Below are positions 6,474 through 61,955 of a DNA stretch of 64,000 bases, piece after piece. Source of the stretch: Thuidium tamariscinum (taxonomy: Eukaryota; Streptophyta; Bryopsida; Hypnales; Thuidiaceae); NCBI GenBank assembly GCA_947034885.2, contig OX344756.2, forward strand, positions 9,631,598 to 9,695,597, in the 5' to 3' direction. Positions within the stretch are counted from its first letter, which is position 1. Each line of letters opens with the position of its first letter. A model generated the notes under the pieces. That model saw only the letters and a program-made list of their open reading frames with translations, was not told the DNA's origin and ran no database searches. The position numbers and the translations under genes were made by a program.

Positions 6474-7241
6474 GGGTGATTGCAAGAAACACTTCACGTA
6501 TTTGGCTCAAAAACATTGTTTTTGGACATAGTATTGGCAGTATTACGCAATCTTGACAATACAACGTGTCTAATGCGTGTCTAATGCGCGCTTACAAATC
6601 TCAATCATCGATTTTGGACGCCTGTAGATTTGGATCGTCAGTTCAGTACTATATAGTACTATAGACTACTACAAAGTACTTCACAAGCTACAGAGAGCAG
6701 AAAATAGCAAAAAAGGGTTTGTGGACCTTTTTATTTTTTATAATTAAAAAAAAATTCAAAATTTTTTTATAGAATTTTTTTTTCTAAACAAAATTGTGCT
6801 CACATTGCAACAAAACATTCATCTAGAATTTTTTTTCCCTCTTCGTAGTGTTTGTACAAAGGAAGGTCACTTTGATCCCATGCGGACAATAGACATTTTA
6901 CTACTTTCATAAAAACTCACCGTCAATCCTTGAAATGTTAGTAGACCTCCAACTTGTCCAATTTGTGGCTTCAAATTTGGAATTTTGAGTCAACAATAGG
7001 ACTAAACCCACCACCCCACCCCCAAAAAATGGCCAAGGTAGACAACCAATTGGTGACAGTTTAAGAATAGTAAAATAATTTTTTTTAAATTGAAAAAATT
7101 ACATAACATATAAAAATTTTGTGTGCACCTTCAATACAAATTTCAAGTCAAAAGAGCAAAAAATGCAAAAGTTATGAGGAAAAAACTACCTAGTAGAAGT
7201 CAAGGGGACAAAAAAATGACAGGTGTTTCTTGCAATCACCC
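6474..7241. mobile_element. Family A element (simple form)
   Basis: It begins GGGTGATTGCAAGAAAC and ends with the reverse complement GTTTCTTGCAATCACCC, or near it. TTAC is duplicated at both edges (6470-6473 and 7242-7245). The length is 768 bp and it is non-coding. Its right half aligns with that of the copy at 45839-46567: both have the phrase 'ggccaaggtagaca' and the same order of motifs. The first ~200 bases, with 'gtctaatgcg' repeats, appear specific to this copy. Confidence 0.75.
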
Positions 7242-13887: not shown

Positions 13888-14621
13888 GGGTGATTGCAAG
13901 AAACGCCAGTCCCATTTCCCGTCACAATTGGAGTTTTGTTGTTATTTTCTACTATAACTTTTGAATAAAAATATTCGAGAATATGAAATAATTATTGGAC
14001 CTCTCTAACTTGATGGTTTTTACATCCCTTATTTTTAAGAAATTAAAAAAAATCATTTTATATTTAAAATTAAATTTTGTTAATTTGTCACAAACTGAGG
14101 TTTAGGGTTTTTTATTACGTTAGGAGTACCCAAATTTAATGATCTAAAGTTGAAATTTTCATGGTTCATTTGCATAGTAGGAAAGTATATTCCTACCAAA
14201 GAGAATCTAAAAATATATTATTTTATGTCCTCCACATGCATGCAAACAACACTCCAATTGTACGCAATTCCTAACCATTGACAATAGTGCTAAGATTATT
14301 TTTTTGGTGAAATCTCATCACCATCAACTCTTCTCAAATGGAAAATTTTTAGATTTGAGAAAAAGATATTTTCCTATTTTTTACAAATTAAAATGTAATT
14401 ATGCCCATTTTCATGAGATTTTCCACTTTTCTAGTTCTCATACTTAGAGAATTTTCCTAAGGTTTTCCTCCATAGGGTACCTTCTTATTTAAGGTGTATA
14501 CATTGTACATATTTTTCATATTTTTTAAAAATTGTTTTTCTAATTAAATAGTACTCCTAAAGAAAAAGGGGATATACTGTGAAACGCTACGGAAAATGGA
14601 CGGCGTTTCTTGCAATGACCC
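13888..14621. mobile_element. Family A element (simple form)
   Basis: It starts GGGTGATTGCAAGAAAC and ends TTTCTTGCAATGACCC. The target duplication is TATT (13884-13887 and 14622-14625). The length is 734 bp and it is non-coding. It belongs to the same subgroup as the truncated copy starting at 61176: both have 'acttttgaa.aa', 'atgtcctccac' and 'ctcatcac' in the same order. Confidence 0.75.
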
Positions 14622-20419: not shown

Positions 20420-22625
20420 AATGTCATGTATGGTAATCTTTGTGATTTCATAAGATATATAGTTGTTGCCTCATGAAAACCTTATCTGCAAAACCTTAAT
20501 AATGACTAAAGGCAAAACCACATATGAAGGAAAAAAAGTATAATACCTTTATTAATCCATTCTCATTGCCAAAGTCAATAAAAGAAATTCTTATGGAGAG
20601 ATAGCTAAGGTTTCTATTATTTTTATGATAAAATTTGTTGAATCCCTCACTCCAAAATATTGAGTTGCTACAATCCAATGCCATTCCAATGTCATAGTAT
20701 AGGACAAGCACTATGCCTTATAGGGACATTGATTGCAATTGCAATATAAAGCCTCGTAGATGTAGTCAAATATAGAAGTGGTATAATTGAGGTGAAGGAT
20801 GCATATTATTCATCCTATAGTTCTTCCTCCTCCTCATAAGGACAATAAGCATCATCACCTCTATTGCTAAGACAAACCCAAAGTGTGGATAATGGACATT
20901 TGGTGCCTGCAAAGAACAAGTCATCATTGTATACAAGTCATCTATAACTTTCATATAAACATTAGCATGAAAGGAGCCAAATAGATAAGTGATGATTACA
21001 TCTATTAGATGCAACTTAAAGATGGTGTACAGTGGGGTACCAATCAAAATGTCGTTTTTGAATTCGCAGTGAACAAAATCTCAATACTACTAACTTTGAA
21101 AGCCTCCCGAGAGCTCAAAAATTGGTATTTTATCACGAAATTCTTACCACAAAATCATCTTTAAGTTAATTATATTTATGCCAAATTTCAAGGCCAAAAG
21201 ATTCACCAAAAAAAATTTATTCAAAATCTACCAACATGGGTAGTGGTGAGAAACATTTCACTACTTTCAACTTTGACACCTTCCTAAGGATTGAGTTTTT
21301 TTGTTTTTGCCATGAATTTTTTGTCATGAAACAATATCTATGTTTTTAATATGTATAGAAAATTTCAAGTTAAAAAAGTTTTTCTTAAAGAAGATATTTG
21401 AAATCTCCCAACATGTGTAGTTTTGAGAAATTTTTCACAATTGCCAATTTTGACACCCTCCCAAGGGCTGGAAATTGGTTTCTTATCATGAATTTTTTTG
21501 GGTAAAGTCATCTCTATGTTGATAATATGTTCTCTAAATTTCAAATTCAAATGAATTAGCAAAAAGAAGATATACAAAATCTCCCAACATGTGTAGTTGT
21601 GAGAAAATTTTCACTACTACCGACTTTGACACCCTCCCAAGGGCTGAAAATTTGCCTATTTAACCTGAATTTTTTTGAATGAGATCAAATTTATGTTGAT
21701 AATATATGTTCCAAATTTCAAATTCAAAACACTTACCCAAAAAATGATATTCAAAATCTCTCAACATGTGTAGTTGTGAGGTTGAGTTTTTACATTCGTG
21801 TCAAACTTTGCTCCACAAAATAACACTATACTAAGGGCTCAAAAACTCCTCCTCACAACTACACATGTTGGGATATTTGTATATCTTCTTTTTGCTAATT
21901 CATTTGAATTTGAAATTTAGAGAACATATTATCAACATAGAGATGACTTTACCCAAAAAAATTAATGATAAGAAACCAATTTTCCAGCCCTTGGGAGGGT
22001 GTCAAAGTTGGCAATTGTGAAAAATTTCTCAAAACTACACCTGTTGGGAGATTTCAAATATCTTCTTTAAGAAAAAAAATTTTAACTTGAAATTTTCTAT
22101 ACATATTAACAACATATATATTGTTTCATGACAAAAAATTCATGGCAAAAACAAAAAAACTCAATCCTTAGGAAGGTGTCAAAGTTGAAAGTAGTGAAAT
22201 GTTTCTCACCACTATCCATGTTGGTAGATTTTGAATAAATTTTTTTTGGTGGATCTTTTGGCCTTGAAATTTGGCATACATATAATTAACTTAAAGATGA
22301 TTTTGTGGTAAGAATTTCGTGGTAAAATACCAATTTTTGAGCTCTCGGGAGGCTTTAAAAGTTAGCAGTATTGAAATTTTGTTCACTGCGAATTCGAAAA
22401 TGACATTTTGATTGGTACCCCACTGTACATTGCCATCCTAATAAGGTATTAAAAAGTAATATAATCTAAAACTAATGAATATGTAGAATGATAATCTCAT
22501 TAAATTTTTGTATAAAACCTATAGTAGCTAAATATCCTTTGTAACATATAAATTGACCTTTTTTTTATTATGTTTGCACACAAATACCAATTTATATCCA
22601 AAAATTTGAAAAGAGAGATTATTCA
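20420..22625 (-). mobile_element. Fossil copia-type LTR retrotransposon fragment
   Basis: Minus-strand sequence at about 20850-21030 resembles the start of a copia reverse transcriptase domain, with short motifs such as TYLFGS and YMK. Related wording continues on the far side of a fold-back element at about 22429-22620. The stretch around 20450-20530 has the 'ggttttgc' and 'gaggcaacaac' phrasing often seen near the LTR of plant copia elements; that part is inference. The fossil is broken, with several breaks, lacks most of its length and looks old. It is interrupted by the family D fold-back at 21031-22424 and bordered by family C MITEs on both sides. Confidence 0.6.
21031..22424. mobile_element. 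Family D fold-back element with 175-bp subrepeats
   Basis: The left arm (about 21031-21797) and right arm (about 21845-22424) are near-perfect reverse complements around a ~50-base loop. The ends read AGTGGGGTACCAATCAAAAT and its complement. GTAC flanks both sides (21027-21030 and 22425-22428). The surrounding copia fossil shows that one GTAC was there before insertion, so the duplication is either GTAC or the central TA. Within each arm, units of about 172-175 bases repeat, marked by 'caacatgtgtagttgtgag' variants at about 21233, 21405, 21582 and 21757. It is non-coding, and a transcript would fold into a very long hairpin. Confidence 0.8.
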
Positions 22626-27876: not shown

Positions 27877-28243
27877 ACAATGCATTTTTAAGCTAGTGCA
27901 CTATTAAATTTCCAACAACATTGGTATAAATTATGTTTTTCATGAAGTTTTGCAAGGAATCCAAACAATATGCTTTACTCAAGTCTTAAAATATATGGAA
28001 GCAATTATGCACGACAATTAACATCAATGTCATTAGACCACTTTTCAATAGTTCGCACAATGCATTTTTAAGCTAGTGCACTATTAAATTTCCAACAACA
28101 TTGGTATAAATTATGTTTTTCATGAAGTTTTGCAAGGAATCCAAACAATATGCTTTACTCAAGTCTTAAAATATATGGAAGCAATTATGCACGACAATTA
28201 ACATCAATTTCATTAGACCACTTTTCAATAGTTCGCACAATTC
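27877..28243 (+). repeat. 180-bp tandem duplication, two copies
   Basis: The sequence from about 27877 repeats with an exact 180-base offset starting at about 28057. The two copies differ at one base over the full unit ('atcaatgtc' against 'atcaatttc'). This is by far the youngest-looking repeat in the window. It is non-coding. Confidence 0.9.
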
Positions 28244-30474: not shown

Positions 30475-33055
30475 ATATTAAAACTTATGGATACAAATAT
30501 TTATTGTTTTTCCTATATGTTCAAGTAAAAGCACTTTCAATGATTGGATGGATGTTGTCCGAGAAAGCGCTACATATAATTGACCATGAGAGAATATTGG
30601 AGTCTGTAAATCTACGCCTACATATTTAATAGATTGACCTTGAGATTTATTTATGGTCATAGTAAATGCCAATTTTACTGGAAATTGCCATCTAAAAAAT
30701 TTGAAAGGTACATCTGCTGTTGTTGGTTGTAGAGTTATTCTTGGAATAAATGTTGTTTCCCTTCTATGACTTCCGGTCAAAATTTGGGCTTCAATGATAT
30801 GATTGCTTAAGCGTGTTACTGGGTGAATGCAAGAAACACTTGTACTATTTGTTGCGTTTCGTCACACCCTATTTTTTTTTTCTTTTAGCCATAACTTTTG
30901 TGTTTTAGCTCCAAATGACTCAAAATTTACAGGGAAGCTACTCATAGCTATTATATATCTAAAATGAATTTTTGAGATATTTCAAAAATAATTTATTATT
31001 TTTAAATAGCCCCAAAAATTTCTCACAGTACTTGATTTAAGGGTTTTTAGCACCCCGTTTCTCCAAAAAACTGAATTTTGACCTAAAATTTGGAGAATAT
31101 GGTTTCCTAATAGACTTATACCTACTGTCCAAAGGAATTTTAAAAATACTTATTTTTAAGTGTTGTAGAAGTCCACAAAGAGAGCTTCATTTTGCATTTT
31201 TTTCCAAAGGTATAAGACATTATTTTGGTGATTTTTTTGATTAAATCTCATCACCAAATTTTTTTTTCAAGTTTTGTATTTTTATGTATTTTTCAAAAAA
31301 ATAATACTATTTTTAACAAATTAAAATGTCACAAGTTGTATTTTCTTCACCGGAACTTTGGACATAGAATTCTCATAGAATTCCGGTGAAAAAAATACAA
31401 CTTGTGACATTTTAATTTGTTAAAAATAGTATTATTTTTTTGAAAAATACATAAAAATACAAAACTTGAAAAGACTTTTTGGTGATGAGATTTGACCAAA
31501 GAAATCACCAAAATAATGTTTTATACCTTTGGAAAAAAATGTAGAATGAAGCTCTCTTTGTCGACTCTTACAACACTTAAAAATAAGTATTTTTAAAATT
31601 ACTTTGTAAAGTAGGTATAATTCTATTAGGAGACCATGCTATCCAAATTTTAGGTCAAAATTCAGTTTTTTGGAGAAACGGGGTGCTAAAAACCCTTAAA
31701 TCAAGTACTATGAGAAATTTTCGGGGCTATTTAAAAATAATAAATTATTTTTGAAAAATCTCAAAAATTCATTTTAGATACATAATATCTATGAGTAGCT
31801 TCCCTATAAATTTTGAGTCATTTGGAGCTAAAACACAAAAGTTATGGCTAAAAGAGAAAGAAAAAAATAGGGTGTGACAAAAGGCTTTAAGTGTTTCTTG
31901 CATTCATCCCTACTATAAGGTGGGAGCCATTACAGAGACCACGTTTTGGAGCAATATTGCGTAATAACATGATAGGACATCCAACCTTGAGTTGTAGCTT
32001 TGCAAGTGACAATCCAGACAATTCTAAAGAATTGAGGTATTCAATAGGATATATATTATGATTGTCAGCACCAACCTTTAAAATTGGAGTGTCTGCACTT
32101 TAAAATGTTTCTAACTCTCATGGAAACATTTGAAGGACCTGTTTGTTGATATCCTCAACTTCATTTCGAGTTGATAAAATGGTTCGTTCTTTAAAATATT
32201 CATCACTTTGTGTAAGAATATTTTGTATAGTACTATAAATTCCTTGAATGAAGGATACAATTCCTTGACAGTTGACTACTTGCTTAGGTAGTACAGTCAA
32301 GCCATTCGCATTAATTGAAATTTAACCACTTCCAACTTGGAGAAGCCAATTTGCAAAATCTTGATTTTCCATACATGTTGTATTTAAGCGCGTCTTTTGC
32401 CGTAACCTCAATATATGCGTTTTTAGCTACAAAATTGATCTTTGAAGTGAAGCGTCTACTATCTGTACTCTAGAACCTTTGACAATAACTGGAAGAATTT
32501 GACAAAAATCACCTCCAAAAACTACAATTATACCTCCAAAATCTCTATTGTTGTTGCAAAGGTCCCGAAAGATACGGTCAATAGCCTCTAGACAATGACG
32601 ATGTTGCATGGGGACTTCATCCTAAATTATCAATGATGCTTCGTGTAGAAGATCAATCCGATTTGATGTTTTATTGATTGCACATATTGAATCTTCATTG
32701 ATCTCAATTGGAAGTACGAAAGTTGAGTGGGTTATTCGTCCACCATCAAGGAGAATTGTAGCAATACCAAATGATGCTACACATATTACAATCTTTCCTT
32801 CACTTCTAAGTTTTGTTGCAATTGTATTATATAAATATGTTTTTCCTATTCCAAATGGTCTATAAAAAAAAATCCTTCCAATATGTTCATCCATTGATGT
32901 CAAAACTTCTTGATATGCAATAGCTTGTTCTCCACTCATGATATGATTGACATGAGATCATTTTGATTCCAATCACATTGTTTAGCAATCAAAGGATTGG
33001 GGCAATGAAGCCATGAAGGTTCCAAGGGATTATTGATTGTGGCATTCCCGATATG
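30475..33055 (-). pseudogene. Helitron PIF1-type helicase domain (broken)
   Basis: From 32939 downward the minus strand gives a degenerate Walker A (PFGIGKT instead of the usual GPGGTGKT), [10 protein letters not shown] around the Walker B site, [10 protein letters not shown], and later NKSQGQS and YVALSRTT, the hallmark late motifs of PIF1-like helicases. Apart from the fold-back insertion at 30821-31910 the frame is continuous from 32939 to about 30475. It is interrupted by about five in-frame stop codons, two of which sit where the family has tryptophan, consistent with TGG to TAG decay. Upstream of 32939 a frameshift separates it from the preceding part. Helitron helicase unwinds DNA during rolling-circle transposition; this copy cannot. 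Confidence 0.9.
30821..31910. mobile_element. Family A fold-back element inside the helicase
   Basis: It begins GGGTGAATGCAAGAAACAC and ends with the complement, GTGTTTCTTGCATTCATCCC. TACT is duplicated on both sides (30817-30820 and 31911-31914). The two halves are long inverted arms of about 540 bases that differ only at scattered positions, with the turn near 31360-31385 ('catagaattctcatagaatt'). Each arm corresponds to the right ~540 bases of simple copies such as 44861-45592. The length is 1,090 bp and it is non-coding. The helicase frame continues across it, which confirms the ends. Confidence 0.9.
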
Positions 33056-33059
33056 TAGG

Positions 33060-34152
33060 GGGTGATTGCAAGAAACACTTGTACTGTTGTGTTGCATCAT
33101 GTTTTGTGGTGACTAGTTTTCTAGCCATAACTTTTGTTTTTTAGCTCCAAATGATTCAAATTTTTAAAAATGGATACTCATAACTATTATACATCATTCA
33201 AATTTTTTTGAGGATTTAAAAAAAATATTTTACTATTTTTAAATAGCCCCCGATTATTTGTCACATATTCCAATTTAGGGGTTTTTAGTACTATTTAGAA
33301 CCCAAAAAAATGAATTTTGAGCTGAAATTTTGAGAAGATGTTTTCCTAGTAGAATTATAGCTTATCTTAAAAGTAATTTCAAAAATAGTCATTTTCATGT
33401 GGTGTAGAAGTCTACAAAGAGACCTTTTTTCTGCTTGCTTTCTGAAACGTGTAAAACATTTTTTTGGTGATTTTCTTGGTCAAGCCTTATCACCAAAAAG
33501 TCTTCTCAAATGGACAATTTTTATTTTTATTTTAAAAAATGTTTTTTATTTTTTATTAATTAAAACATTGAAGTATGTATTTTCTTCATCGGAATTCTAT
33601 GTGTTCTATGTCCAAAATTCTAGTGAAGAAAAATACAACTTCAACATATTAATTTGTAAAAAATAGAAAAAACGAATTTAATGAAATCTAAAAATTGTCC
33701 ATTTGTGAAGACTTTTTGGTGATAAGGCTTGACCAAGAAAATCACCAAAAAAATGTTTCATATGTTTCAAAAAGCAAGTAGAAAGAAGGTCTCTTTGTGG
33801 ACTTCTACACGTCAAAAAAATGACTATTTTAAAAATTCCTTTGGAGATAAGGTATAAGTCTACTAATAGAATATCCACTCAAATATTCAGCTCAAAATTC
33901 GTTTTTTTGGGTTCTAAATAGTATTAAAAACCCCACAATGTCAAATTGTGACAAATTAACAAAATTGGATTTTAAATATCAAATGATTTCTTAAAATTTG
34001 TAAAAAATAACGATAATAATGTGAGTTAAGATATCTAGGAAGTTTTTTTAAAATTTTGGGCACTTAGTTTTTTATTCAAAAGTTAGAGCGATCTTAAAGT
34101 GGTCAACCCAAAAAAACGCAACAAATAGTACATGTGTTTCGTGCATTCACCC
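33060..34152. mobile_element. Second family A fold-back element inside the Helitron
   Basis: The termini are GGGTGATTGCAAGAAACACT and the complement of GGGTGAATGCACGAAACAC. The flanks are TAGG and TTGG, a 4-bp duplication with one difference. The arms are inverted copies turning near 33595-33620 ('ggaattctatgtgttctatgtccaaaattc'-like sequence). At 1,093 bp it is nearly the same size as the copy at 30821. The arms are less alike than in that copy, so this insertion looks older. The frames on both strands inside it are arm-derived and not genes. Confidence 0.85.
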
Positions 34153-34900
34153 TTGGCCAAAGAATTGTTGTAATCGTTCCTCAAAATCTCATTGATTAAA
34201 AACAATTCATAGTCAAAGACTTGATCTTCACTGGGGTCTTTCAATTGTCGTTGCATTTGTAGTCGATGTCTAAGATCATCGCACATTTGGTCTTGAAATT
34301 GTTCCCACAAATGCCCAAGCTCATTTGGTGAGTAATGAATGAGTAATGTGACAAATAAAGCTCAAAGTTGTGATCCTGACTGCATGACAGAAGCTTCTTC
34401 CAAACATGAAACCCATTCTCCATCATTTTCTAATAGTCCTTTAGTTAAACATGCCTCTTTAAATGTGTTGTAAAGATGACCATCCACTGTTCAAAGGTCT
34501 TCATATACATGATACTAGTCTAGGTACAATTGTCAAAAGTAAACATAAATAGTACCGTTCACCAGCAATTGGATTAGCAAAATAAAGTCTTCCCAATGCA
34601 AAACCGGCTCATCTAGGGGTCCATTCCTTTGTAGGCCTTTTTCCACACATAGTGTTGTGGAATCCCCAAATATGTGTATTGTCGAGCATTTGCATCCCTA
34701 GCACACATTGCAAAAAACCCAGTTAATGTAGTATTTTCACGCCCCACTCTTTGAAGAACTTCTGTGCAACATCCTCTTGATTAAATACCAGCCTATGCAT
34801 CCCTGGCAAATGCAAAGCAAGTCGTACCACATTGGGGCGTTCTTCATGAATATGCATTGCAAAAAGTCTCAAGCAACTTCAAGAGCACTAACATAGGGAG
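34083..34900 (-). pseudogene. Helitron region between Rep and helicase (broken)
   Basis: This holds pieces of the linker between the Rep and helicase domains. A fragment around 34241-34426 matches the part usually reading like 'LYLSHYSF...' and passes by a frameshift into WEQFQDQMCDDLRHRL. Further upstream, near 34550-34900, phrases such as RPNVVRLALHLPGMHRLVFN (about 34785-34850) lie in alternating frames. At least three frameshifts and several stops separate the pieces. It is cut at its lower end by the fold-back at 33060-34152, so the last codons of the frame at 34083-34310 come from that element. Confidence 0.7.
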
Positions 34901-35852
34901 CATCCAAGTGTTGGTCTACCTCATTAGGCTCACGACCAAAGCACATAGTTGTATGATCGTGACCTTTGTAAATATATTTCAGAATATATTTCACATCTTA
35001 AATTGAAGTAAAAACTTCAATATTAATGTGATAACCATATTTGCGAGACAAATATGGATTGTAAGGCACTACATCTCAATTATCCTCCAAAATTCCACGT
35101 GCCTCAAATTTAGATTTAACTAATTATGGAAATTAATAAGTCCAAAATTAATATTCAAAGGTTGATTCCATCTACCTTTTTGAGGTGAAATCTAGAACAA
35201 GTATAGATGTATCAGCTACCAACCGATACATATTATTTATGGACTTTTGTCCATAATTTGTAGACTAGTTCATAATTAGTTAAATCTAAGTTCTCATAGC
35301 TACGATCAGTGTTGTTCCTTCTATGATACAATGGATATGCATCAACATCTATAGAGGTAGACTCTTGAAAAGTTTTGGATAACGCTTTGAACAATTTTCA
35401 TCTTTCATACATGGTGCAGTAGGGTTGCAAGCTCTACATGGACCATGCACCATTGTCCTCAATATTGTATCAAATAAAATGGGGTCTTTTTTCGGATTAG
35501 GGAATTTTGCACAAATAATGCGATCTACAACTACTACATCAACTATTTTGTCTTTTTCTGCAAAAAATAATAAAAAATGCATATGTGGCAATCCACGCTT
35601 TTGAAATTCTATAGTATAAACATGAGCTACTATTTGACCAAGCATATTGTTGGGTGCAATGTCTCAAAGTAGGGCTTGTGATTTGATTCTGAAAACATGG
35701 GCTACCAAATCCAGTCCATCAGATGTCTTTTGTCCTAGAAGCAATGCATTTTTAATTTCAAGCCATTTTGGATTTGCTGTCATAGTTCCAAATATATCAA
35801 AATGTTTGAAATAGCGAGTGATTGCTATAGAATCTTGAAAAATTTCAAACAT
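34901..35852 (-). pseudogene. Helitron Rep (HUH endonuclease) domain (broken)
   Basis: Minus-strand frames give DLVAHVFRIK (about 35680), then EFQKRGLPHMHFLL (about 35580), which contains the HUH-type metal-binding pair H-M-H, then HGPCRACNPTAPCM. After about 400 bases comes KYILKYIYKGHD (about 34960-34995), which holds both tyrosines of the Helitron Rep active site. These enzymes nick and join single strands in rolling-circle transposition. The catalytic residues I can see are all present, although stops and frameshifts between blocks make the domain non-functional as it stands. Confidence 0.85.
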
Positions 35853-36676
35853 GTTGCAAAGGCAATATGACGTGTCGACTAAGATTTTGAAAGTCTATTT
35901 CTTCATTGGCAAGCTCTCTAATTGTATTAGCAAGTCCTTGATATACATCTGCTCTTAGTGTACCTTGATTTGTTTGTATCCACTGTAAGCGTGCTTGCTC
36001 CATCACCGCCCATGCATCAACAATGAAGTCATGAAATAATTTTCTTCCATGAAGTATTGTAGAAAACTCATTGTCTCTTGGAAATAATCTATATGAAAAA
36101 AATTCCATTTGAGTGACATGTGATTGTCGTACTACATGAAGTATGTGTGGATGCCAACCAAGCTCTCCATAAGGAAATAATATCATGTAATGCAATGGCA
36201 AACACGTGGGATGACACTCATTAATCCATTGAAGCGCTCCTCCACATAAACGCAAAATAATATCACGTGTTGCATTTGGAATGTCACCATCTTCTGGCAA
36301 AATCAATGCTATTTCATCATTTTGAGGAAGATTATAATGCCTAGCTTGCCTTCCAGGCTCAAAATGTAGATGCATTGTTAGGTCTGGGTTTTTATTTCCA
36401 TTTTCATGCTCTTCATGTAGAATTTCATAGGCTTGCCTCTTAAGTGGAACAAAGTTATTGTACTCCATTAACATTTGTTGCAATGCCAACATTGTCTCAG
36501 GACATACTTCTTCATTTCTTTGTCTTTGAGTTTTGATTGCTTCAGTAGGATTGTAAATATATAGTTGAACAAATGTAGGAATTTCATTAGGTTCATGAAG
36601 AAGAGCGCCACATTGATGAGTCAATCTTCCATGGATGTAGAAACAATTGGGTCCACAACCCAAAGTATGGTCCCTA
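35845..36676 (-). pseudogene. Helitron-like N domain, longest intact stretch
   Basis: There are 272 codons without a stop. Recognisable family phrases run in order: FYIHGRLTHQCGALL, TFVQLYIYNPTEAI, RHYNLPQNDEIALILPEDGD, LHYMILFPYGELGWHP and RKLFHDFIVDAWA. These match the Helitron-like N-terminal domain that precedes the Rep domain in plant Helitrons. The apparent first codon at 36663 (TTG) is not a real start: the frame continues upstream and, beyond the family B insertion at 36681-37614, into the zinc-finger part. It overlaps the start of the Rep part by a few bases in another frame. Confidence 0.9.
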
Positions 36677-36680
36677 TTAA

Positions 36681-37614
36681 CTCCTAAAGGACCAACATGC
36701 CTTTTTTGGCAACATAGCGATTTTGGGCAGGTACGTGTGACTAGAGATTTTCATGTTTTGAAACCAAATTTTAATGGAAGGTGGAGACGAGGAGTATCTT
36801 TAAAGCCCAACAATTTTTGTGACTTTTGACTTCTTTTTTGAAAAGTTATTGCACGATATGTTGTTTGTTTTTCAACTCGGGCACTTCGGGTAGATAAAAA
36901 AAATCACTTTTTTTGGAATCCAAAATTTGAAATTGGTTTTATAGATTTATATATACGTGGAAAGCTTTGAATTTTTTCCATTTGAATTAATGAGTCAAAA
37001 GTTATGAAGAATTTTAGTTTGTTGGTAGTTATGGATTCTCTACTCTAAAATAAACTTTGAAGTCCTTTATTTTACATAATTTTCAATATTTTTGAAAAAA
37101 CATAAAAACATTAAGTGTAGATTGTTTATTACAACATTTGAACCATTGGAATTGGCATTTTTCAATTCAATAAACAAATTGTTACCATTTTTGTATTTTG
37201 AATCATTTTCTACTTCTTTCTACTTACTATTTTTTTTGTACATGTTGTACAATTCCAAATGATATGAAAATTTTCAAACATGTATCCAACTTGAATTGGA
37301 AAATGAATCCAAAGTATTGCAACCATTTTGGACATTTTTCATACAAATGTGGCCTTTTGAAGTCCAGCTGCCCGGATTTTTGCAATGGTAAAAAAAGGAT
37401 TTTTGTAGCTTCAAACACTAATATCTTGCAGTCTACATGGCAAATAATTCTGAAATTTTTTATACATCTTTGCAAAATAGTGAAATAAAATATCATACAG
37501 TTATATGTGTCTAAAAATGTTTTTTTTGTGAAATTTGGTAGCTATCCTAAAAATGATAGTTTTGGAGCAATTTTGCTAGAAACATAGTTGCGGTCCTTTA
37601 GGAGTTAACACCCA
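36681..37614. mobile_element. Family B TTAA-flanked element inside the Helitron
   Basis: The ends are CTCCTAAAGGACC and its complement GGTCCTTTAGGAG, each bordered by TTAA (36677-36680 and 37615-37618). The Helitron frame on either side needs only one TTAA, so this is a TTAA target duplication. The length is 934 bp, AT-rich and non-coding. The interior aligns with 41358-43029, 40900-45768 (reverse) and 48971-49533 (reverse). TTAA-specific insertion is known for piggyBac, Kolobok and Sola3; which of these applies, if any, is unknown. Confidence 0.9.
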
Positions 37615-41357: not shown

Positions 41358-43029
41358 CCCCTAAAGCACTAAATTGCATTTTTGGGAACATAGTCAATTT
41401 TGGGCAGCTCACTAAGTCACTATGAATGGAGTTATTATTTTTTTTCTTAAAAATGTTTACACAACATTTTTTTGACAAGTTTCTTTAAGGTCTAACAACT
41501 TTTATAACTTTTAACTATGTAGTAAAATGGTTATTGTATGGTATATAGTTTTTATTGCTTGATAGGCAATTCAGGCAGGGAAATAAAACTTATTGAAAAA
41601 TTATTTTTCTGAAAAGTAAAAATTTGAAATTATTTTCTTAGATTTATATCTAAATGGAAAGATTTAAATCATTCTACTTTGATCAACAAGTCAAAAGTTA
41701 TGAGGAGTTTTAGTTTGGGATAGTTACTAAGTAGTTATGGAATCTCTACTCTATAAAAAAAACTTTGAAATCCTTTATTTAGTTTATTTTTTAATATTTT
41801 TGAAAAAAATAAATAATAGGTGTAGTTTATTTTTACAACATTACAACCATTGGGAATGTCATTTTTCATTTCCATAAGGATGATTGCAAGAAAAACCTAT
41901 CAGTTTTGTTGCATTTTCAATAGTATACATGATTTTTTGGTTAGTAATTTATAATTATAAAATTAACATATATTTTAAACATAAATAATGTATAAACCTT
42001 CAAAATAAAAGGTAACCACCGATGGAAATTTATAGAAAAATTCTCTTAGTAGGAAAACTAGAATTGTGCTAAATCTCAAGAAAGTAGATATGTGGATGTT
42101 CAAATTAGTTAAAAATAGTAAAATTAAATAAATACAAAGAAGAAATTTTTCCATTTGTAACAACTCTACCAAAATGGTCATTTACTAAAAAAATCCACCA
42201 AAATTATATTTTATATGTTTCAAAATGGAAGCAAAAAGAGGCTCACTTTATAGACTTCCACACCACATAAATTTAATTACTTTTAGGAATCCTTTGGCCA
42301 TTAGCTTAAAGTCTACTTGAAGACCATATCCCCAAAATTTTAGCTTGGAATTATATTTTGGGGTACTAAATAGTACTAAAACCCTCCAAACTAGCAAGGA
42401 TGACATTAAAGTGGGGTCTATTTTAGGATAGTAAGATATTTTTGAAAATTATGAAGAAATTAGGCGAGGTGTATGTGTCATGAGTACCTTTTTTATATAA
42501 ATCTTGAGTCATTTGGAGCCAAAATACAAAAGTTTCAATCAAAAAAGAGATCATCATATAAAATGTGATACAAAACAGGATATGTGTTTCTTGCAATCAT
42601 TCTAAATAAATTGTTAACAATTTAGTATTTTAGATCATATTTTATTTTTTTCTACTTAATATTTTTTCCCTACATGTTGTACAATAATTTGAAATTTTTC
42701 AAGCATATAGCCAACTTGCTTTGAAGAATAAATCCAAATAGTAACTATCATTTTGGACATTTTTTCATACAAATGTAACCATTTGAAGTGCAGCTACCCC
42801 ATTTTTTGCAAGGTTGAAAAAAACATTTGTTGATGCAAATGCTCATATCTTGCAATCTATATGATAGAAATTTTTGAAATTTTTTCTATATCTTTTCAAA
42901 TGAATTTACTATAAGATCCTATTGATAAATGCATCTAGAAATGTTTTCTTTTCTAAAAGTTGGTACTTGTGTTGGAAATGGTAGTTTCAAAGTGTTTTTC
43001 ATGAGAACATAGTCAAAAGCCTTTGTGGA
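41358..43029 (+). mobile_element. Family B element nested in another family B element
   Basis: The left end is CCCCTAAAGCACT, preceded by TTTA (one change from TTAA). The right end is 'aagcctttgtgga', followed by TTAA (43030-43033). The interior follows the same order as 36681-37614, including 'cattttggacattttt' and 'tacatgttgtacaat'. It carries its own insertion, the family A copy at 41878-42602. Removing it brings 41341-41357 next to 43030-43077, which is contiguous sequence in the copy at 48971-49533. Confidence 0.75.
41878..42602. mobile_element. Family A element (simple form), innermost of the stack
   Basis: It begins GGATGATTGCAAGAAAAAC and ends GTTTCTTGCAATCATTC. The flanks ATAA and TAAA do not give a clean 4-bp duplication, so one side has probably changed. 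It is 725 bp and non-coding. It interrupts the family B element at 41358-43029, whose sequence resumes on the other side. Confidence 0.75.
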
Positions 43030-44860: not shown

Positions 44861-45592
44861 GGGTCATTGCAAGAAACACCTGTCCTATTTGTTGCGTTTT
44901 GCAACAGTACTCATGAATTTTTCAGGATTACTATAAAATTAGAAAACTAATTTTTAAAAAATTTTAAAAATATGAATAATGTATATACCTCTAAAATGAA
45001 GGTTTTCACCAAAGGAAATTGATAGAAAATTTCTCTAAGTAGGAGAACTTGAAAAGTGCCAAATCTCAAGAAAATAGGTACTTTGATTCAAAAATTAGGG
45101 AAAAATAGTAAAATTAAGTATTTTCAAAAAATAAAAAGTGACCATTTGCAAAAACTTTATGGAGATGGTAATTCACAAAAAAAACCACCAAAATAATATT
45201 TTATATGTTTCAAAATACAAGCAGAAGGGAGCTCACTTTGTAGACCTCCACACCTCACAAAATTAACTTTTTTTTAAAATCCTTCCCTGGAGAGCTAGAA
45301 ATCTACTAGAAGACCATCTCATCTAAATTTCATCTCAAAATCATTAAAAAAGGTATAGCTCAGGTACTAAAAAACCCTAAACTACCAAGTGTGACATCCA
45401 ATCGGGGTCTATTTTTGGATAGTAAACTATTTTTGAAAATTATGAAAAAATCAAGGAAGGTGTATATAGTTATGAGTACCTTTCATATAAATCTTGAGTC
45501 ATTTGGAGCTAAAACACAAAAGTTATTGCCAAAAAACTGATCAACATGCAACGTGTGACACAAAATAGTATAGGTGTTTCTTGCAATGACCC
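44861..45592. mobile_element. Family A element (simple form)
   Basis: It begins GGGTCATTGCAAGAAACACC and ends with the complement, GGTGTTTCTTGCAATGACCC, a perfect 20-base inverted repeat. ATTA is duplicated on both sides (44857-44860 and 45593-45596). It is 732 bp, non-coding and inserted in family B. The sharp ends and perfect duplication suggest a relatively recent insertion. It is a good reference copy for the family. Confidence 0.9.
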
Positions 45593-45838: not shown

Positions 45839-46567
45839 GGGTTGTTGCAAGAAACACTTACTGGTTTTGGCTCAAAATGGCTCAAAATCAATGAGTCCTG
45901 TGAGTCCTATGACCCTTTGAAATAAATTATTTTTAAATTGAAAAAAATATGGATAATTTGAAGAGCAATGAGAATATTATGTCTCTTGAAATTCAGACCT
46001 AAGAATTTTTTTCTCTAAATGTTATAGACAATGGAAAATACAATGAAAATAGCTTTTTTTTCACTAATTTGGTAAAAATAGTAAAAAAATTCAAAAAATG
46101 AAAATGAAAAATAAATTTTTTCTTCAAGTAAAGGTCTTTCTTTTCCAACAAATTTCATCTTTGGAAAAAATAAATTCTATTCTCTACACTTGCGCAAAGT
46201 CAGCCACCTTGATGACATGTGGAGGTTGAACAGTATAGTATTTTCAAAAAATCTCTTTGTGGTCTTGTGTAACTTTAGGTGAGGTCCTTGCGTGCCAATT
46301 TCCAGCTCAAAATTTGCATTTTTGGGTCAAAAATAGGACTAAAACCCCCCAAAATGGCCAAGGTAGACAGCCAATCAGGGGCAGTTTAAAAATAGTAAAC
46401 TAATTTTAGAAAAATTGAAAAAATTACACAACATATAAAACTTTTTTGTGCACCTTCATTCCAAATTTCAAGTTGATAGGAAAAAATATGAAAAAGTTAT
46501 GAGCAGAAAACTACTTGTTGGAGGTCAAGGGGACAAAAAATAGGACAAGTGTTTCTTGCAATCACCC
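45839..46567. mobile_element. Family A element (simple form)
   Basis: It begins GGGTTGTTGCAAGAAACACT and ends GTGTTTCTTGCAATCACCC. TGGT is duplicated on both sides (45835-45838 and 46568-46571). It is 729 bp and belongs to the same subgroup as 6474-7241. It lies only about 70 bases past the end of the family B stack. Confidence 0.85.
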
Positions 46568-54104: not shown

Positions 54105-54840
54105 GGGTGATTGCAAAAAACACTTGTTCTATTTTAATGTCACACCTTGCACATTGATATCTTTTTGGCTATAAATTTTGCATTTTGACTCCAAATGACT
54201 CAAGATTCATAGCTAAGGTATTCATGACTATTATGCACTTTGTCTAATTTTTTTGGAAATTTTCCAAAAGAATTTACTATCCTAAAATAGTCCCCAATTT
54301 TATGTCACACTTGCCAATTTGGATTTATTAAGAGATATTGAGCACCCCCAAAAATGAATTTGGAGCTAAAATTTGGAAGAAATAGTCTTCTAATATATTT
54401 ATAGCTATTGTCTAAAATAATCCTAAAAACAATTAATTTTATATAGTATAGAAGTTCACAAAATGAGATCCATTTTGCTTGAATTTTGGAATATATAAAA
54501 TAATACTTTGGTGGTTCTTATGTTGAATGACCATCTCCAATTTTTTGTAGAATTACTACAAACAACAGATTTTTAGTTTTTTTTATTAATTTTTTTTGTA
54601 TCTTTTATAAATTATAATGTCAAAATGCCTATGTTCTTAAGATTTTTTTTCTAGTTCTCCTATTGAGAAATTCTTTTCTATGCTTTTTCTTCCTAAGATA
54701 TATTTAAAAATATATATATACATCGTCTATATTTTTTAAATTTATATAAATTTATTTTTCTAATTTTAAAACATTCTAGAAAAAAATCCATAGTACTCCT
54801 AAAAACACAACAAATATTATAGGTGTTTCTTGCAATCACC
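54105..54840. mobile_element. Family A element (simple form)
   Basis: It begins GGGTGATTGCAAAAAACACT and ends GGTGTTTCTTGCAATCACC. The flanks GTAA and ACAA give an imperfect duplication. It is about 736 bp and non-coding. Its left ~540 bases correspond to one arm of the fold-back forms, so it is the simple form in the opposite orientation to 44861-45592. Confidence 0.8.
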
Positions 54841-54845
54841 TACAA

Positions 54846-61175: not shown

Positions 61176-61955
61176 GGGTCATTGCAAGAAACATCGGTTG
61201 TTTTTCCATCACAATGAGAGTAGCTCTCTTGTCATCTTCTACAACTTTTGAACAATAAATTCAATGAAAAAAACAAAAATTCTATTTCTACCTATCTTAA
61301 TTATTATTTTATCCCTTATTTTAGAAAAAATTAAAATAATTTATGTTTAAAAGTCAATTTTGTTAATTTGTCACATTCTTGGACTTAGGGTTGTTGACTA
61401 CAAAAAGAAGTCTTAATTAATTTTTTTAGGTGAAATTTTGTGGTATATTCCTATAGTAGGTAGACACATTTCCATTAAAGGGCATTTAAAAATACAACAT
61501 TCTATGTCCTCCATGTTCATGCATGTAAGCTTCTCTTGCACGTGTAGTTCTAATTAATAATAATGGTTTCAACCTAATTTTTTTGGTCAAATATTATCAC
61601 TGTTAAGTCCTCACAAATGAACCATTTTAATTTTCTTAAAATGATTTTTTCCTTTATTTTGCAAATTGAAATGTCAAAAAATGTATTTTTTGTGATGTAT
61701 TCTTAGACATAGAAATCTGGATAGGAAAAGGTATTTTGAGTTTTTAATTTATAATAAATTAAAAAATATTAAAATTGAAGAAATTAAAAATCCTTCATTT
61801 AGTAAGGACTCGATAGTGATGAGATTTGACCAAAAAAATGAAGTCAAAACCATTATTATTAATTAATACTATATGTACAAGGGAAGCCTACTTGCATGAA
61901 TACGGAGGATATAGAATAATGTAATTTTAGAAGTCCTTTGATAGGAATATGTCAA
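61176..61955. mobile_element. Family A fold-back element, right arm truncated
   Basis: The left terminus is GGGTCATTGCAAGAAACATC. The left arm runs to about 61720 and folds back: 'taatggtttcaacc' at about 61562 pairs with the complement near 61845, and 'ctcaca' with the region near 61805. The right arm stops near 61955 without its terminus. The arms have diverged more than in the copy at 30821. Its closest relative is 13888-14621. Confidence 0.65.

Follow-up and report, generated by a model that had tools for sequence, protein, structure and literature searches.

Mobile fold-back elements with a common axis, and their simple relatives, in the moss Thuidium tamariscinum

Fold-back transposons and transposons with long terminal inverted repeats (TIRs) are found repeatedly among superfamilies that are not related, and the passage from a short TIR to a long inverted arm has usually been argued from few copies. 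For Galileo of Drosophila, "two recombinant TIR" (2RT) and chimeric copies have been described, and in the sections cited the authors suggest that one TIR served as the template for repair of the other and that copying went on beyond the TIR (PMC3573991, PMC4168063). Sola elements, according to the cited parts of two sources, make 4-bp target duplications, have TIRs of very variable length, and are known from the moss Physcomitrella (PMC10741241, PMC9033089); the Repbase rule for membership, as worded in the passage cited, is a terminal alignment, over positions 1-11, with a known member (PMC4455052). This paper concerns a group of transposable elements, here called family A, in a stretch of 64,000 nucleotides of contig OX344756.2 of the moss Thuidium tamariscinum (C8:9631598-9695597, hereafter the window), with genome searches covering the 363-Mb assembly. 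Besides 11 large contigs, the assembly has one of 103 kb on which COX1 lies in exons with intron open reading frames, resembling the mitochondrial genes and gene order of mosses. Some of its members are simple elements with short TIRs, and others are fold-backs that form mobile families with one fixed axis and, in one family, mosaic arms. A single genome offers hundreds of copies, together with simple relatives and with fold-backs that represent several stages of arm exchange, and for this reason the formation of arms, their conversion, and their replacement can be told apart.

Family A comprises many short non-coding elements that have a terminal repeat in common, recognized in the window and in genome-wide matches. 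With up to 3 mismatches allowed, the window holds 18 occurrences of its terminal 19-mer, against 0.04 expected, and exact matches number 6,567 in the genome, against 0 for the reversed control; with the inverted-arm alignments given below, these counts rule out chance or low-complexity matches as an explanation of the arms. The simple copies are ~730 bp long and have TIRs of ~30-35 bp (30 bp at 93% identity in the element S1, 35 bp at 89% in S13), just as an earlier note on this DNA had described them. They fall into an alpha and a beta subgroup, represented by S1 and S13, respectively (Table 1). The other, non-arm, ends of these two are 73% alike over S1 1-324, and the right end of S13 groups with the fold-back families FB3 and FB4. 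No open reading frame (ORF) of at least 150 amino acids lies inside a family A element in the window, where the sole ORF of that size sits outside them.

The hairpin forms of family A are fold-back transposons, i.e., mobile elements whose long inverted arms make up nearly their whole length. Three of them, with arms of ~540 bases, had been proposed for the window, and this picture is right for FB1 and FB2, whose arms align at 94% over 484 nt (30872-31355 with 31381-31864) and at 82% over 341 nt (33256-33596 with 33616-33956), respectively. Aligned with their own reverse, gaps allowed, FB1 gives 90% over 1-1089 and FB2 gives 75% over 1-1093, and FB1 is predicted to fold into a single hairpin of -729 kcal/mol. 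The third, FB3, has to be described differently, as its right arm is cut at 61953 and reaches about 245 of ~535 bases (arms 61463-61617 and 61799-61953); FB3 relatives elsewhere in the genome give matches on both strands past this cut point. A fourth family, FB4, was found outside the window. As a separate observation, FB1 and FB2 split a decayed Helitron on the minus strand, 30478-36750, of which pieces of Helitron_like_N, PIF1 helicase, and Pif1 2B domains are left.

Forty genome places were scored for each of FB1 (91-100% identity), FB2 (94-100%), FB4 (89-100%), and S1 (95-100%), nearly all at full length, which bears out the suggestion in the earlier note of separate mobile fold-back lineages. 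The relatives of FB3 (mostly 72-85%) and of S2 (71-78%) are more diverged, those of S2 too much so for it to be taken as a recent family. For target duplications, 99 fetched stretches were examined, and both ends were present in 86; 4-bp duplications flank 61 of these copies, against 1.8 expected when the flanks are re-dealt, while the other lengths give 9 copies at 2 bp (8.0 expected), 5 at 3 bp (2.7 expected), and none at 5-9 bp. Among FB1 relatives the count is 32 of 37 (1.3 expected), and 14 of 18 FB4 copies have an exact 4-bp duplication. In the window, FB1 ends at 31910, hence its TACT/TACT duplications, and carries one extra T in its right TIR (CATTCATCCC), and the flanks of FB2, TAGG/TTGG, are an imperfect 4-bp duplication. 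Insertion of FB1 and FB2 without target duplication was considered and dropped in view of that extra T and of the duplications around their relatives. Simple and fold-back forms have the same ends and the same duplication length; therefore, they very likely use the same transposition machinery, and the fold-backs are separate mobile families that spread as fold-backs. The tips, centre, and length common within each family rule out that fold-backs are made anew at each site.

The comparisons below use 37 of the 39 fetched FB1 copies, namely those 1060-1120 long in which both ends were found, together with the window copy, 20 of 20 for FB2 plus the window copy, 11 of 20 for FB3 (nine were without a clear end), 8 of 8 for S1 plus the window copy, 8 of 8 for S2 plus the window copy for the consensus, though 6 of the 8 passed the end test, and 18 of 18 for FB4 plus L089, L090, and L087. 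The last of these holds a beta simple element, at 989-1720, nested in the FB4 fold-back.

Regarding the end that was copied, both FB1 arms and the left arm of FB2 match within 208-732 of S1, i.e., its right end of ~525 bp, and also the left end of S2. The FB2 right arm matches S1 in its inner-middle part alone (S1 233-481), and the consensus identity of its outer ~220 bp is 0.48 to S1, 0.63 to S13, and 0.66-0.69 to FB3/FB4 (0.68-0.69 for FB4), with 0.49 to its own left arm. FB2 arms are mosaic, and the view that both arms match the same (right) side of the simple copies stands, with the correction that this outer part fits the right end of another subgroup, that of S13. Arms matching different halves of the simple elements, the finding that the earlier note had named as speaking against it, were not seen, tips of ~40 bp apart.

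The axis is common to the four families and lies ~535 bp from the tip. The centres of all four consensus sequences are TTCTATGTCCAA or one change from it, and the exact FB1/FB2 centre occurs 276 times in the genome, against 0 in the control. A loop variant, GGAATTCTATGTGAATTCTATGTCC, in kind between the FB1 and FB2 centres, is present at L149 and L150.

The tips bear on where the copying began. They were typed over positions 20-48 by the best score to the left ends against the best score to the right ends of simple copies, and the left/right scores are 30/27 and 17/17 for the left and right arms of FB1, 20/18 and 30/14 for those of FB2, 11/22 and 21/18 for those of FB3, and 24/17 on both arms of FB4. 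The clear cases are the FB2 right and FB4 tips, of left type, and the FB3 left tip, of right type, the others depending on narrow margins or on reading of the sequence. The FB1 left arm, by eye, begins with a 39-bp left tip ending in TTGCGTTT, as in S1, followed by right-type sequence; its margin is small because the 20-48 stretch runs into the latter, and the tip of the right arm differs. The left tip of FB2 is, again by eye, of its own kind. In sum, ~40 bp resembling the replaced end lie on one arm in FB1 and FB2 (by reading) and in FB3 (by a small margin), and on both arms in FB4. Just inside the tips (60-110), 8 of 8 arms score as right-end type, three beta arms narrowly (26/20, 29/24, 23/14). 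When copies are scored with the two tips of FB1 itself, 37 of 38 FB1 copies carry one of each and one (L044) carries two left-type tips, and in FB2 reading places the left-type tip at the end of the right arm in each of 21 copies (20 of 21 by score, the copy scored right-type at both tips, L059, having a one-base indel when read). This typing, at the tips and just inside them, therefore indicates that copying in inverted orientation most likely set in within the TIR, ran to the axis, and overwrote the rest of the left end, a course like that proposed for Galileo. The proposal that one end was copied inverted and replaced the other ~190 bases thus holds with one correction, namely that one arm has kept ~40 bp of the replaced end.

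Whether the fold-backs had one origin or several was addressed with a tree of 52 ends (39 fold-back arms and 13 simple ends), its rows being random picks from each fold-back family, together with the window copies and the first four loci of S1 and S2. In the outer part of the arm (45-220), FB1 and the FB2 left arm go with the alpha simple ends (S1, S2, S42), and FB3, FB4, and the FB2 right arm go with beta (S13); in the middle part (221-420), both FB2 arms go with alpha; over the inner part, 421-535, a branch with support 94/83 separates all 39 fold-back arms from the 13 simple ends. The change of affinity can be followed along FB2, which at 361-420 from the tip is alpha-like (0.71-0.74 to alpha simple ends, 0.56-0.58 to FB4) and at 401-460 is FB4-like (0.82-0.83 to FB4, 0.64-0.65 to alpha simple ends). 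We lean, by a little, towards one fold-back core whose outer arms were exchanged later, a reading with moderate support that comes mainly from FB2, FB4, and the centre.

Simple parents of the fold-backs were also sought, with hybrid queries joining the left end of a simple copy to the FB1 or the FB4 arm. Among the best 40 of 6,125 and of 5,592 candidates, respectively, none is a simple element bearing an arm like that of FB1 or FB4. The best places match the arm; many of those for FB1 match the ~40-bp tip as well. Matches running through the left part are, for one query, three nearby simple elements at 70-79% and, for the other, its source element at 83% (1-594), one element at 75% (1-479), and a short one at 77% (1-166); they never reach the at least 90% of true FB1 and FB4 arms. 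In addition, eight partnerless arms were fetched, seven FB4-like and one FB1-like, picked by eye with at least one more (C8:17440498) left out; none of the eight continues into a left end, and one adjoins a separate S1-like element.

The earlier note had offered a check on single ends, by which the arms of one element clustering together would mean repeated independent formation, and arms sorting by side would mean one ancestral fold-back. The arms of FB2 and FB3 sort by side in the tree, and each of these families is one ancestral fold-back that spread. Of the five FB4 elements in the tree, two have arms that form a supported pair and three are unresolved, and FB1 arms are mixed. Identity between the arms of one element is 97.1% in FB4, against 91.2% with arms permuted, and 94.9% in FB1, against 93.0% (0 of 5000 permutations in either family), and the own arm is nearest in 20 of 21 and 17 of 38 elements, respectively. 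For FB2 the values are 71.8% and 71.7% (reached by 355 of 5000 permutations; own arm nearest in 2 of 21), and for FB3 67.6% and 67.9% (2 of 11). Private states present in both arms of one element number 71 in FB4 (0.22 with arms permuted), 22 in FB1 (0.79), 0 in FB2 (0.24), and 6 in FB3 (3.86). In FB1 and FB4 the sites at which the two arms differ are clumped along the arm, to a degree reached by 0 and 2 of 500 shuffles, respectively; FB2 and FB3 show no such clumping. Two of the 38 FB1 copies (L021 and L023) have a loop that is flipped with respect to the tips; these two are mutual nearest relatives (95.5%), so that a single event may account for both. In the FB1 consensus, with tips and centre excluded, the arms are 99.4% identical.

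The arms of FB1 and of FB4 recombine with each other and are homogenized within the element. The private shared changes, the flipped loop, and the copied tip point to conversion between arms and not to independent formation; hence, the clustering of arms within elements is here no evidence for independent formation. A more general caution follows, in that two arms of one element clustering together do not alone show that the element formed independently. Among the FB1 copies, one at L158 (746-1323) consists of one arm and a 21-bp tip stub and is likely a solo-arm deletion product.

These results establish the structure, mobility, and fixed axis of the fold-backs, the mosaic arms of FB2, and the homogenization of arms in FB4 and FB1, and from them we infer a repair event, a single origin, and a direction from simple to fold-back. 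The members of family A would be miniature, non-autonomous TIR transposons that depend on a transposase leaving 4-bp duplications at the target. The fold-back form may go back to a copy that was broken or excised and then repaired with its own, or a sister's, opposite end as the template. Synthesis would have begun in the TIR common to both ends, which would explain why ~40 bp of the lost end survived, and would have produced an inverted copy of ~500 bp of the right end before rejoining at one axis. For the core, a single origin in a beta (S13-like) background is most likely; it would then have transposed as a fold-back, with later recombination swapping outer arm parts for alpha-type ends, part-way in FB2 and further in FB1. 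Arm conversion would be ongoing in families with arms that resemble each other from end to end (FB4, FB1), and it is not seen in FB2 and FB3. Mosses are known for efficient homologous recombination. As a tentative extension, one that we would not yet bet on, the fold-back core may act as a recombination platform, picking up end modules from divergent simple relatives, which conversion would then carry to both arms; arms alike throughout (FB1 and FB4, same-element identity 91-99%) would keep renewing, and FB2 and FB3, with different arms, would be locked in. If so, the divergence between arms would be a clock like that of long terminal repeats (LTRs) in some lineages and not in others.

Several observations weigh against a single core with arm exchange and conversion. 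The whole-arm, outer, and middle trees split the fold-backs between the two simple subgroups, and a single fold-back clade is rejected in the outer (p 3e-133) and middle (p 6.5e-10) parts. The inner-arm support drops to 83/67 over 421-522 and 61/42 over 401-522; the best tree for 441-522 is without a fold-back clade, which is not rejected there (p 0.468), and 361-440 rejects the clade weakly (p 0.036). The FB1 inner arm at 401-460 has no preference (0.66 to alpha, 0.67 to beta, 0.67 to FB4), and the left-type tip of FB3 is on the opposite arm, relative to the loop, from that of FB1 and FB2, by a small margin (21 against 18). Part of the shared loop (CCAAA) resembles, by eye, simple copies at the same place, so the shared loop could be parental, and the absence of simple parents concerns the best 40 candidates of each hybrid query. 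With respect to conversion, the FB2 arms are 82-97% alike at 201-460 from the tip, yet have no same-element excess, so an identity threshold alone does not explain where conversion occurs, and the private shared changes could predate insertion. Finally, no autonomous partner or transposase was found. One of the longer TIR pairs proved to be the FB4 copy with the nested simple element (L087), no long element was recognized among the pairs examined, and no search aimed at a Sola transposase was made; likewise, 20 stretches of ~100 bases from the first 5.3 Mb of C1, inspected by eye, gave no equal 4-bp flanks at TIR pairs 2.5-21 kb apart.

The tree results would also suit repeated formation, in which alpha and beta simple elements each yielded fold-backs, in at least two events, with the same axis reached through a sequence hotspot. 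The outer and middle trees, with FB1 and the FB2 left arm beside alpha, FB3/FB4 beside beta, and a single clade rejected, are what it predicts, the arms of FB1 and FB4 are nearly identical within the element, as in fresh duplications, and the FB1 inner arm is equivocal. Yet this account has to accommodate four families with the same axis and a similar asymmetric loop, FB2 inner arms that are nearer to FB4 than to alpha simple ends, a mosaicism directly visible in FB2, and the lack of a simple parent close to FB1 or FB4 in the 40 places scored for either of them. We regard it as rather unlikely, though worth keeping in mind; the recurrence of fold-backs in different subgroups, once thought to suggest a repeated mechanism, does not require one.

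The reverse direction, in which the fold-back is ancestral, as a long-TIR transposon, and the ~730-bp simple elements derive from it by replacement of most of one arm, draws on the published range of Sola TIRs, 11 to 1124 bp in the part of the source cited (PMC10741241), and on the autonomous element behind family A not having been found. It appears improbable to us: the left ends of S1 and S13 are homologous (73%) and their right ends belong to different subgroups, so the layout with a left and a right end is widespread, and the fold-backs retain just the ~40-bp tip of a left end, as if the rest had been overwritten. More improbable still, to the point of being hard to maintain, is a head-to-head fusion, in which two adjacent, opposite elements lost their inner ends and the outer TIRs moved the pair. 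Nested and adjacent insertions of the family exist (L087; L152), and the outer arms of FB2 differ from each other; however, a fusion predicts variable axes and two right-type tips, and the axis is fixed, one tip is left-type, and the FB1 consensus arms are too nearly identical outside tips and centre. A single core with later exchange of outer arms continues to be the account we prefer. The features of the window on which this discussion draws are collected in Table 1.

Table 1. Family A elements in the window and their parts (positions count from the first nucleotide of the window)
Feature	Position	Strand	Remarks
More distant simple element	6474..7241	+	TIR and ~200 bp of arm-type end in common; flanks TTAC/TTAC
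S13, simple element, beta subgroup	13888..14621	-	arm-type end on left; flanks TATT/TATT
4-bp target duplication TACT, left of FB1	30817..30820	+	read from sequence
FB1, fold-back	30821..31910	+	left arm ~30821-31355, loop ~31356-31380, right arm ~31381-31910
Tip of replaced (left-type) end on FB1 left arm	30821..30859	+	39 bp ending TATTTGTTGCGTTT, as in S1 left end
4-bp target duplication TACT, right of FB1	31911..31914	+	read from sequence
FB2, fold-back	33060..34152	+	left arm ~33060-33596, loop ~33597-33615, right arm ~33616-34152
FB2 right arm, outer part	33930..34152 (boundary approximate)	+	beta-type right end with left-type tip
S42, simple element, alpha subgroup	41878..42602	+	75.5% to S1 across 727 bp
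S1, simple element, alpha subgroup	44861..45592	+	flanks ATTA/ATTA; ~208-732 is the end that became arms
More distant simple element	45839..46567	+	TIR and ~270 bp of arm-type end in common; flanks TGGT/TGGT
S2, simple element, alpha subgroup	54105..54841	-	arm-type end on left; exact 4-bp duplication not seen
FB3, fold-back, cut	61176..61953	+	left arm complete, right arm stops at 61953

Other repeats were met along the way. End types different from those above, with the same TIR (GTCCCCTTGACC and similar), occur at L114, L123, L124, L126, and L128 and therefore represent further families beyond those studied. The window also holds a separate large inverted repeat at 21026-22429, with arms of 456 nt, 96% complementary and 492 nt apart, which has direct repeats inside at ~177 bp spacing and is unmatched by family A queries, and a tandem pair of 180-bp units, 99% identical, at 27877-28236.

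Target duplications of hAT, Harbinger, Mariner, and CACTA elements are 8, 3, 2, or 3 bp long. The family A copies do not follow these lengths, known from the miniature inverted-repeat elements of these groups, as 8 bp is found in 0 of 86 and 2 and 3 bp are near expectation. With Mutator-like and Foldback elements, family A has long inverted arms in common (PMC3169594, PMC4079207, PMC3310237, in the parts cited), and it differs from Mutator-like elements (MULEs) in its 4-bp duplications, those of MULEs being 9-11 bp in the section cited (PMC3310237); at 9 bp, the one of these lengths counted, a duplication is present in 0 of 86 copies. Family A resembles Sola in its 4-bp target duplications (61 of 86 copies; exact in 14 of 18 for FB4), and membership in Sola is unproven because the transposase was not found. 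At ~730-1090 bp, the elements include fold-backs beyond the 800-bp limit that one survey used, according to its cited part (PMC12550479). Among openly licensed papers, looked through by text rather than by sequence, no report of family A was found.

The family A fold-backs are a known kind of element. In bacterial insertion sequence (IS) elements, a copy whose two TIRs recombine with each other has its inside inverted and may end up with identical tips (PMC3004938, as far as the cited part goes), much as in the FB1 copies with the flipped loop and in L044; IS TIRs are short, and no arms are formed there. Galileo offers the fuller parallel: in the parts of the literature cited above, inner sequence was drawn into its TIRs as inverted arms, subfamily chimeras exist, and the TIRs within one copy are 98-100% identical, a likeness to the family A fold-backs. 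Galileo has a P-superfamily transposase, 7-8 bp duplications, and inverted repeats of at least 600 bp at the start, according to the same parts, and a 7 or 8 bp duplication is found in 0 of 86 family A copies. Unlike Galileo, family A would have set out from a TIR of ~30 bp; it is flanked by 4-bp duplications and has fold-backs that are themselves high-copy families.

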